The notes under the pieces: model-generated | What the model was told of the DNA's origin: nothing | Database searches by the model: none | Seen by the model: only the letters and a program-made list of their open reading frames with translations | Shown here: positions 45,958 to 47,871 of the stretch, piece by piece | Layout: each line of letters starts with the position of its first letter | Numbering within the stretch: position 1 is the stretch's first letter | Assembly (NCBI GenBank): GCA_017416685.1 | Contig: JAFQBN010000030.1 | Location: 1 to 53,456 of the forward strand | Source of the DNA: Oscillospiraceae bacterium | GTDB lineage: Bacteria; Bacillota; Clostridia; Oscillospirales; Oscillospiraceae | Direction of reading: 5' to 3' | Length of the DNA: 53,456 nt | Position numbers and translations under genes: made by a program

Positions 45958-47181
45958 ATGACCACCCCCAATATCGAACTGCTTGCTCCCGCCGGAGACA
46001 TGGAACGGCTGCACATGGCTCTGGCCTACGGTGCGGACGCGGTCTATCTGGCCGGCACCACCTTTGGCATGCGGGCCTTTGCAGGCAACTTTGACCATGA
46101 TGAGCTTTGCGCAGCTGTGAAGCTGGCTCACGCCAAAGGTGTACGGGTCCACGTGACCTGCAATACCATGCCCCGCAACGACGAGATCGCCGCCCTGCCC
46201 CAATGGCTGGAATTCTTACAGGATGCCGGCGTGGATGCCATCATCGCCGCCGATGTGGGTGTTTTGTCTTTGGCAACGCGCCATGCTCCGAAGGTTCAGG
46301 TACATATCTCCACCCAGGCAAGTATCGTCAACTACCACTCTGCCAACGCCTGGCACGATTTGGGCGCCAGCCGGGTCATCCTGGCCCGGGAGCTGTCCCT
46401 GGATGAGATCGCCGCCATCCGGGCCAAGACTCCTGCATCTTTGGAACTCGAGGCCTTTGTCCACGGTGCCATGTGCGTGTCCTATTCCGGCCGATGCCTG
46501 CTGTCCAACTACATGACCGACTCCAGCCGTGACTCCAACCGGGGGGCCTGCGCCCAACCCTGCCGCTATCAGTACACTCTGATGGAGGAAAAGCGCCCCG
46601 GTGAGCATTTCCCCGTCTTTGAGGACGAACAGGGTACGTACATCTTAAACTCCCGGGACATGTGCATGATCGACCACATCCCTGAGTTGATGGCTGCCGG
46701 GCTGAACAGCCTGAAAATTGAGGGCCGGGCCAAGTCCGCCTACTACGCCGCCATCGTTACCGGCGCCTATCGCCACGCCATCGACGCCGCAGCCGCCGGA
46801 CAGGCCCTTGACCCCGCGTGGCGGGAGGAAGTGGAAAAGGTCAGCCACCGCCCCTACTCCACCGGCTTCTACTTTGGCCATCCCGGTCAGTACTACGCCG
46901 ATGGCCGCTACATCCGGGACTGGCAGGTGTGCGCTGTGGTGGAGTCCTGCACCCCCGACGGCCTTGCCACCCTGTCCCTGCGCAACAAATTCACCGCCGG
47001 GGACGAGGTGGAGATCGTCGGTCCCAACACTCCCGCCATGGCTTTTCACGCCCCGGTCATGACCGACATGGACGGCTTTGCATTGGAGCAGCCCCGCAAG
47101 CCGGAAATGCGCTTTACCATGCAGCTGCCCAAGGCCGTCCCTCCCCTGTCCCTGCTGCGCCATCAGGCAGAGGGATTGTAA
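45958..47181 (+). CDS. trhP: peptidase U32 family, tRNA uridine 5-hydroxylation protein TrhP-like
   Basis: 407 residues. N-terminal LLAPAGDMERLHMALAYGADAVYL and central CVSYSGRCLLSNY with RGACAQPCRYQY are the U32 hallmarks; the four Cys of the central region (C in MCVS, GRCL, GACA, QPCR) are the ones expected to bind an Fe-S cluster in TrhP. TrhP (YegQ/YrrN/YrrO) makes 5-hydroxyuridine at the tRNA wobble position with prephenate. In B. subtilis the yrr genes also follow mltG (yrrL), matching this order. No second U32 gene is adjacent here. AGGAGG precedes the ATG. Confidence 0.92.
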   Translation: MTTPNIELLAPAGDMERLHMALAYGADAVYLAGTTFGMRAFAGNFDHDELCAAVKLAHAKGVRVHVTCNTMPRNDEIAALPQWLEFLQDAGVDAIIAADVGVLSLATRHAPKVQVHISTQASIVNYHSANAWHDLGASRVILARELSLDEIAAIRAKTPASLELEAFVHGAMCVSYSGRCLLSNYMTDSSRDSNRGACAQPCRYQYTLMEEKRPGEHFPVFEDEQGTYILNSRDMCMIDHIPELMAAGLNSLKIEGRAKSAYYAAIVTGAYRHAIDAAAAGQALDPAWREEVEKVSHRPYSTGFYFGHPGQYYADGRYIRDWQVCAVVESCTPDGLATLSLRNKFTAGDEVEIVGPNTPAMAFHAPVMTDMDGFALEQPRKPEMRFTMQLPKAVPPLSLLRHQAEGL

Positions 47182-47202
47182 GGTATATCTACTTTGCGTA
47201 GG

Positions 47203-47231
47203 TTGCACCAAGTACTGTTCCATGCTATGCT
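47203..47231 (+). promoter_or_regulatory. promoter of the HTH-desulfoferrodoxin gene
   Basis: TTGCAC, 17-base spacer, TATGCT, ending 25 bases before the ATG. A CTAC/GTAG inverted repeat lies just upstream of the -35 box. Confidence 0.75.
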
Positions 47232-47255
47232 GAAATCAGAAAGGGCGTGGATACT

Positions 47256-47840
47256 ATGAATTCCTATGTCACCGGCGCAGCCATCAAATCGCTGCGAGAA
47301 AGCAAACATCTGACTCAGGCGGAACTGGCCGAACAGCTCGGTGTCAGCGATAAAGCCGTTTCAAAATGGGAGACCGGAAAGGGTTTTCCCGACAGCTCCC
47401 TGTTGCAGCCGCTGGCCGCCGCGCTGGGTGTGTCCGTTATCGAACTTCTCAACGGCAAAGTCATCGTCAACCGCAATGCGTCCGGCAACCTGCTGCGTTC
47501 CAAATGGTATGTCTGCCCCGTCTGCGGCAACGTGATCCATACCACAGGAGATGCTGTCATCAGCTGCTGCGGGGTCACTCTGCCCCCTTTGGAGGCGGAG
47601 GACCCGGACGATGCTCACGCATTGACTGTTGAAAAAGTGGAGGATGAGCATTTTCTCACCATCCACCATCCCATGACCAAGCAGCACTATATCTCTTTTA
47701 TGGCCTTTGTCACATCCGACCGACTTCAGCTGGTCAAGCTCTACCCGGAGGGTGAAGCTCAGACCCGCCTTTCCCTGCGGGGCCGAGGGTTCGTGTATTT
47801 CTATTGCAACAAACACGGCCTGTTTCAGCAGAAGATATAA
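47256..47840 (+). CDS. XRE-family HTH protein fused to a desulfoferrodoxin-like (superoxide reductase) module
   Basis: 194 residues in three parts. Residues 8-65 are an XRE helix-turn-helix (LTQAELAEQLGVSDKAVSKW). Residues 84-111 match the desulforedoxin domain of desulfoferrodoxin: Cys87, Cys90, then adjacent Cys104-Cys105 (CPVCG, later CCG). Residues 113-190 match the superoxide reductase domain, with all expected iron ligands: His121, His138 and His144 (HHPMTKQHY, same six-residue spacing as in desulfoferrodoxin), Cys184 and His187 (YCNKHGLF, same three-residue spacing). It therefore looks like a DNA-binding protein with two iron centres that could sense superoxide, oxygen or iron. The ATG at 47256 is 10 bases after AAAGGG. 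Monocistronic. Confidence 0.88.
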   Translation: MNSYVTGAAIKSLRESKHLTQAELAEQLGVSDKAVSKWETGKGFPDSSLLQPLAAALGVSVIELLNGKVIVNRNASGNLLRSKWYVCPVCGNVIHTTGDAVISCCGVTLPPLEAEDPDDAHALTVEKVEDEHFLTIHHPMTKQHYISFMAFVTSDRLQLVKLYPEGEAQTRLSLRGRGFVYFYCNKHGLFQQKI

Positions 47841-47843
47841 AAA

Positions 47844-47871
47844 CAGCGGCAACACACAGGTGTTGCCGCTG
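47844..47871. terminator. bidirectional terminator
   Basis: CAGCGGCAACA (47844-47854) pairs with TGTTGCCGCTG (47861-47871); CTTTGTTT follows on the plus strand and TTTTTAT on the minus strand, serving both convergent genes. Confidence 0.88.

Follow-up and report, generated by a model that had tools for sequence, protein, structure and literature searches.

A helix-turn-helix protein with a desulfoferrodoxin-derived body and a conserved predicted operator on its own promoter

The window analysed here, a stretch of 53,456 nucleotides from an Oscillospiraceae bacterium (GCA_017416685.1, contig JAFQBN010000030.1), carries a gene for a protein of 194 residues in which an N-terminal DNA-binding domain is followed by the iron ligands of a desulfoferrodoxin, with a predicted operator and promoter in front and a terminator behind. 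The features at the locus are the following:

47188..47205, + strand: predicted operator TCTACTTTGCGTAGGTTG, matching 14/15 consensus positions
47203..47208, + strand: -35-like element TTGCAC, overlapping the operator, with a 17-base spacer to the -10 element
47223..47231, + strand: extended -10 element TGC-TATGCT (hexamer 47226-47231), at a fixed distance from the operator
47256..47840, + strand: HTH-Dx-SOR-like protein, 194 aa, ATG start, stop codon at 47838-47840
47283..47447, + strand: XRE/HTH_3 DNA-binding domain, residues 10-64 (PF01381, E 2.6e-14)
47514..47570, + strand: desulforedoxin-like centre I ligands Cys87, Cys90, Cys104 and Cys105 (CX2C-X13-CC), from alignment to 2ji2 and 1dfx
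47616..47816, + strand: superoxide-reductase-like centre II ligands His121, His138, His144, Cys184 and His187, from alignment to 2ji2 and 1dfx
47844..47871, + strand: intrinsic terminator right after the stop codon, 12-pair stem with a T-rich tail

The start of the protein lies in a context that is conserved in the alignment of relatives, M(N/D)xY(V/I)TG, and in the predicted structure model the helices of the HTH comprise residues 7-16, 21-28, 32-40, 47-57 and 61-66. An HTH_3 match was found in 70/70 members of alignment A2, in agreement with the N-terminal HTH of the HTH-Dx-SOR class. In the body of the protein, H138-X5-H144 and C184-X2-H187 reproduce the class motif HX5H ... CX2H, and the Fe(His)4Cys ligand set of superoxide reductase is present in the sequence. 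The XRE helix-turn-helix and nine iron ligands, which the earlier note had reported for a single 194-residue protein, are confirmed by the profile match and the alignments, and the body, judged by its sequence, is desulfoferrodoxin-derived and keeps all nine ligands. The profile search for desulfoferrodoxin domains that had been proposed as a check left PF06397 below its cut-off in the window protein. A chance resemblance to desulfoferrodoxin is ruled out by the domain match, the alignments, the relatives and the conserved ligands, and a named family for the whole protein was rejected, none of the 25 NCBIfam models listed reaching its cut-off.

We aligned the window protein with the best 80 of 143 relatives retrieved by a scan of GTDB contigs (81 rows, hereafter the main family). 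All nine ligands are retained in 74/81 rows; in five others Cys105 is replaced by His together with the replacement of His187 by Asp, and in two more only the latter change is present, which gives His187 as Asp in 7/81 and Cys105 as His in 5/81. The double swap, a centre I Cys to His with a centre II His to Asp, is found at loci L053, L054, L056, L060 and L061, whose records are labelled Lachnospiraceae or Eubacterium. The equivalent of the catalytic Lys48, the residue before the first His ligand, is Lys in 2/81 fused rows and missing in 79/81, compared with Lys at the same position in 71/71 stand-alone enzymes of the same taxonomic family. In the window protein Asp119-Ala120 precede His121, Ala120 taking the position of the catalytic Lys, and the Glu-Lys that marks an active superoxide reductase before the first His ligand is absent. 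The stand-alone control was built in two parts. The 30 best-scoring loci and the window genome's own enzyme (n = 31) have Lys and all nine ligands in 31/31 cases; the choice of the best-scoring loci being biased, 40 more were added from the low end of the list, and Glu-Lys-His is found in 40/40 of these; 39 were read by script and one, L217, which is truncated at the end of its contig, was read visually. Five of the 40 low-end genes are preceded by 70-174 residues of open frame; with regard to an HTH, the stand-alone label of the control genes is presumptive.

The spacing of the ligands also differs between the two sets. Centre I has CX2C-X13-CC in 81/81 fused rows, against X15 in 39/40 and X16 in 1/40 of the low-end stand-alone enzymes; the four Cys of the CX2CX15CC motif quoted for the HTH-Dx-SOR class are present, with a spacing two residues short. 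The first two His ligands are arranged as H-X16-H in 81/81 fused rows, against H-X19-H or H-X23-H in 38/39 script-readable low-end stand-alone enzymes, the remaining X13 being maybe a slip of the pattern. Compared with the superoxide reductase motif (E)(K)H-X19-27-H-X5-H-X40-63-C-X2-H, as given in the part of the source available to us (PMC11980386), the fused rows have X16 (81/81), X5 (81/81) and X39 (80/81), and thus depart from the full spacing, although X39 is no real outlier, since 5/40 stand-alone enzymes share it. The CX2H spacing is kept in 81/81 fused rows, with the final His being Asp in 7/81. The loops of the fused domain are shortened relative to the stand-alone enzymes, and with the missing Lys48 equivalent and the short desulforedoxin spacing the earlier description of a "complete" desulfoferrodoxin does not hold. 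The loss of the Lys is no proof of a loss of activity, because the Ignicoccus hospitalis enzyme has Thr at this position, as inferred from the PDB title of its T24K mutant (4brj). In a tree of 35 of the 81 main-family rows (the window and 34 chosen at random), 17 divergent relatives and 31 stand-alone rows, the fused forms are split from the stand-alone enzymes by one branch with a support of 100/100.

Upstream of the gene, the relatives share an inverted repeat with the consensus TCTACG-N3-CGTAGGTTG, represented in the window by the dyad CTACT-TTG-CGTAG at 47189-47201 (centre 47195). The upstream regions of 79 genes were considered (the 81 minus L005 and L010, which start near a contig end), each over 200 bases or as much sequence as was available, and the motif was found at >=11/15 positions in 76/79 of them, compared with 24/1580 regions obtained by single-base shuffling. 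The exact CTACG-N3-CGTAG occurs in 32/79 regions, whereas no dyad reached more than 2 when the regions were shuffled 10 times. L066 carries an exact copy 229 bases upstream, beyond the 200 bases scanned, and is thus a 77th gene with the site; at the threshold of >=11/15 the motif is absent from the scanned upstream regions of L046 and L064. Taken alone, the match in the 53-kb window, at <=3 mismatches, does not exceed what shuffled sequences yield, and therefore the weight of the operator rests on its conservation.

The promoter elements are conserved together with the operator. When 74 of the upstream regions were stacked on the motif (the 76 with the motif minus two too near an edge), the TTG columns of the -35 element had T in 73, T in 58 and G in 69, and TGnTATnCT followed at a constant distance, with TA in 73/74 and the last T in 73/74. 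A generic promoter scan gave no call for the -35-like element. The centre of the dyad lies about 43 bases before the predicted transcript start. At the other end of the gene, the terminator hairpin has an MFE of -23.2 kcal/mol (z -5.0; equally stable in 0/200 shuffles), and its position immediately behind the stop codon makes a monocistronic gene likely. The inverted-repeat operator on the own promoter, which is the mark of an XRE autoregulator, is found here by sequence conservation, so that DNA binding at the promoter region 47180-47256, named in the earlier note, is well founded as a prediction by the conserved inverted repeat at 47188-47205, and autoregulation through this site appears very probable.

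A divergent subfamily suggests that the DNA-binding head and the site change together. An upstream motif at 11-14/15 was found in 14/17 divergent relatives; of the other three genes, two are interrupted and one is truncated at a contig end. The left half-site of these 14 is CTACG in ten, and the right half-site is CGTTT in six, CGTTG in four, and CGTTC, CGTCG, GGTCG or CGTGG in one each, compared with CGTAG in 63/76 of the main family. At operator base 13 the 76 main-family sites carry A (71) or G (5), and the 14 divergent ones carry T (11), C (2) or G (1). The recognition helix ends with residue 40, which is Thr in 81/81 main-family rows, whereas in the 14 divergent proteins, read by eye from the alignment, it is Arg in 13 and Cys in one. 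The sole Cys40 protein, L191, has the one divergent operator with G at base 13. This covariation of residue 40 and base 13 would fit direct recognition, and rests on two clades; in the tree L179 does not group with the rest of the divergent "D" set, so that two changes are required for this set. All five Cys, His138 and His144 are kept in the 17 divergent rows, the His121 column is non-His in 6/17 (for L193 maybe through an alignment shift), and His187 is Asp in 2/17. Given the ligand changes in both the divergent subfamily and the main family, the chemistry of the centres is not uniform. Two of the genes, L192 (G082) and L179 (G014), are interrupted at the same point of the recognition helix. 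The frame before the cut in L192 resembles the C-terminus of a large serine recombinase, and this resemblance and the common cut point suggest that a mobile element may use the recognition helix of HTH-Dx-SOR genes as a target.

We then looked for further occurrences of the operator, using the reversed pattern as a control. In the window genome a single site was found at <=2 mismatches, that of the own promoter, against five for the control, and 21 against 65 at <=3 mismatches. Among 200 genomes of the family, 35 sites were found at <=1 mismatch, of which 25 precede an HTH-Dx-SOR gene, one (G034) precedes an HTH-Dx-SOR start cut by a contig end, and nine lie elsewhere, against 27 control sites. 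At <=2 mismatches, the 30 gene-bearing genomes contain 73 sites against 116 for the control; 27 of the 73 precede the HTH-Dx-SOR gene, in 27/30 genomes, and 46 are elsewhere, with G061, G169 and G181 having no site before the gene at this threshold. Seven of the 46, chosen as recurring or striking, were inspected, and five are inside open frames; that of G131 is a palindrome without a -10 element at the usual distance, and that of G182 resembles a decayed copy of the promoter. Two decayed copies of operator and promoter are seen, at position 1907 of L172 and at position 1601 of L211 (G182), close to a small XRE gene (117 residues) that occurs repeatedly. Across 391 genomes of the class, with gene presence known for G066 only, there is one exact site, in G066, before its own copy of the gene.

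In the relatives' loci (800,404 bases), one site apart from the gene's own reached 13/15, at position 3937 of L050 (Anaerovibrio sp. RM50). This operator dyad, some 2 kb ahead of the HTH-Dx-SOR gene, stands before a nicotinamidase-like gene, with 44 bases from the start of the site to the start codon. Furthermore, two of the nine sites lying elsewhere in the 200 genomes, at L135 (G050) and L141 (G032), are near-identical operators before other XRE genes with different C-terminal parts, and for this reason the operator may belong to a wider XRE subfamily. The upstream regions of 70 stand-alone superoxide reductases gave best matches of only 8-10/15, with one at 11, which is about the level of shuffled sequence. 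As the genome, locus and stand-alone searches gave no second target at the stringencies used, the own promoter appears to be the only supported target.

The fused gene is widely distributed. The record titles of the best 80 of 143 relatives include Oscillospiraceae, Agathobaculum, Lachnospiraceae, Christensenella, Anaerovibrio, Treponema and one Riflebacteria, and 57/200 genomes of the window's own family have a match covering at least residues 37-189, 40 of them at 57-100% identity and 17 at 41-57%. In L076 (the Riflebacteria record) and in G096 there is one stop codon inside the match. No conserved operon partner was found, no cluster of neighbouring frames being common to more than 11 of the best 80 loci; the two commonest clusters, each in 11/80, are ABC ATPase-like and NADPH-FMN-reductase-like. 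The latter, a flavoprotein-type frame, is found within 4 kb of the HTH-Dx-SOR gene, e.g. at 6942-8225 of L066.

A stand-alone enzyme is also present in 32/57 genomes with the fused gene, and in 25/57 none was found (PF01880, E up to about 1e-12), 15 of these 25 being at least 90% complete. There is no support for the fused gene taking the place of the stand-alone enzyme (Fisher p 0.21). The stand-alone desulfoferrodoxin of the window genome (G000:C25:57031-57282 region, locus L001 1387-2016) has a C-terminal BFD-like [2Fe-2S] domain (PF04324, E 8.8e-10), which is possibly a built-in electron donor.

Taken together, we propose a single-gene autoregulatory metalloregulator derived from superoxide reductase, with the iron centres as the switch, a reading to which we give an even chance because the fused domain has retained its metal ligands but not the catalytic Lys. 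The suggestion in the earlier note that the enzyme fold was recruited for regulation gains from the same contrast, with the Lys absent in 79/81 fused and 0/71 stand-alone proteins. The protein would act as a dimer, as the inverted repeat of the operator suggests, and would bind CTACG-N3-CGTAG over the -35 box, with the centre of the site some 43 bases ahead of the predicted start. The switch would then reside in the two centres of the fused domain, Fe(Cys)4 and Fe(His)4Cys, if these are occupied by iron. Their oxidation (by superoxide, oxygen or peroxide) or a loss of iron would alter how tightly the DNA-binding domains hold the operator, and this would set the amount of the HTH-Dx-SOR-like protein itself. 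Repression in the reduced state is preferred since the site covers the -35 element, but sites at about -43 are where class-II activators sit, and by position such a role would be equally possible. In a bolder version, which we consider doubtful, the superoxide reductase would have been retired as an enzyme, and its active site would serve the factor as a direct sensor of superoxide, with the factor's own gene as the sole responder. Superoxide would bind or oxidise centre II, centre I would pass this on to the DNA-binding domains, and sensor, buffer and output would be united in one protein.

With no second target found, it has to be explained why a regulator confined to its own gene should be kept, and an enzymatic function would provide the explanation. 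In the chief alternative reading, the protein would be foremost a working superoxide reductase, a trigger enzyme whose HTH merely tunes its own dose, for which PutA, BirA and NadR are the comparison cases. This is consistent with an operator found only at the own promoter in the window genome (<=2 mismatches), with a monocistronic gene, with all ligands retained in 74/81 rows (the window and the best 80 of 143), and with the 25/57 fused-gene genomes that have no stand-alone enzyme, 15 of them at least 90% complete; the Lys itself may be dispensable, as the Thr of the Ignicoccus hospitalis enzyme suggests (title of 4brj). However, the Lys is found in 71/71 stand-alone enzymes against 2/81 fused proteins, the loops of the latter are shortened, ligands are lost in the divergent subfamily, and the two genes do not replace each other (both in 32/57; Fisher p 0.21), which makes a primarily enzymatic role rather unlikely in our view.

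The same pattern, with ligands better conserved than the catalytic Lys, would also be expected if the centres reported the supply of iron or zinc and the loaded form was a plain autorepressor, and the Cys-to-His and His-to-Asp swaps of some lineages keep a metal-binding character. Yet Fe(His)4Cys is the ligand set of a redox enzyme and no conserved neighbour suggests metal uptake (clusters in at most 11/80 loci, best 80 of 143), so that we regard such a metal sensor as distinctly unlikely. A wider regulon, reached through sites unlike that of the own promoter, is very unlikely. The near-identical site before two other XRE genes (G050, G032) and the same dyad before the nicotinamidase-like gene of L050 in Anaerovibrio show that the operator can occur elsewhere; against it stand the unexplained sites, which stay below the control both in the 200 genomes (9/35 against 27, <=1 mismatch) and in the 30 gene-bearing ones (46/73 against 116, <=2 mismatches; five of seven inspected in open frames), and the 8-10/15, with one 11, before 70 stand-alone superoxide reductases. 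The autoregulatory metalloregulator remains our preferred reading.

For strict anaerobes of the gut and rumen it is vital to detect oxygen without delay, and many of their redox sensors are not known. The HTH-Dx-SOR-like group is widespread, being present in 57/200 genomes of the family and also in records labelled Treponema, Lachnospiraceae, Anaerovibrio and others, and its conserved site provides a defined DNA probe, with which the question of iron centres as a gene switch is open to gel shift. If the autoregulation turned out to serve a working enzyme, the protein would offer a clear example of dose control by the enzyme itself.

The architecture itself is not new, having been known since 2011, when SORGOdb recorded the class HTH-Dx-SOR with 19 proteins, according to the part of that paper available to us (PMC3116461). 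The earlier note knew of no characterised regulator of this kind, and likewise no functional study or characterised member was found in the open-licence literature searched, where the class name was not found in any other paper. In the available part of PMC3116461 no operator, target or function is given for the class, and the open-licence literature searched yielded nothing earlier on the operator, on the restriction to a single target or on the loss of the Lys. As in that class, the window protein has an N-terminal HTH before a desulforedoxin and superoxide reductase module with HX5H and CX2H; unlike the motif quoted there, again in the part available (PMC3116461), it has CX2C-X13-CC instead of CX2C-X15-CC, and it has no catalytic Lys. 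Because of the X13 spacing, and of PF06397 being below cut-off, we describe it as an HTH-Dx-SOR architecture with a variant centre I.

Compared with the class I 2Fe superoxide reductase/desulfoferrodoxin (1dfx, 2ji1) and with the related Treponema pallidum enzyme (1y07), an HTH is added, the Lys48 equivalent is replaced and the loops are shortened. Other XRE regulators are tied to oxygen or oxidant response, as the available parts of their descriptions indicate for TrtA of Treponema denticola, of 104 residues and with no known similarity after residue 80 (PMC12724145), and for Xtr of Clostridioides difficile, with a purified His-Xtr of about 47.2 kDa (PMC13260099). As far as those parts of the sources go, size and domain content rule out both as characterised relatives. 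In contrast to the XRE autoregulators of the P22 c2, 434, SinR and DdrO type, the sensor body here is a metalloenzyme fold.

The enzyme domain of the fosfomycin epoxidase HppE is a cupin fold. HppE (1zz6 and others) likewise has an XRE-like HTH and a non-haem iron enzyme domain in one chain, and shows that an HTH fused to an iron enzyme does not by itself imply regulation; in the present case the conserved site argues for a regulatory role. SoxR and PerR have their DNA binding under iron-based redox control, SoxR as a MerR-type protein with a [2Fe-2S] cluster and PerR as a Fur-type protein with a mononuclear site, and neither is built on a superoxide reductase; the HTH-Dx-SOR-like protein would, in our proposal, share with them the iron-based redox control of DNA binding.
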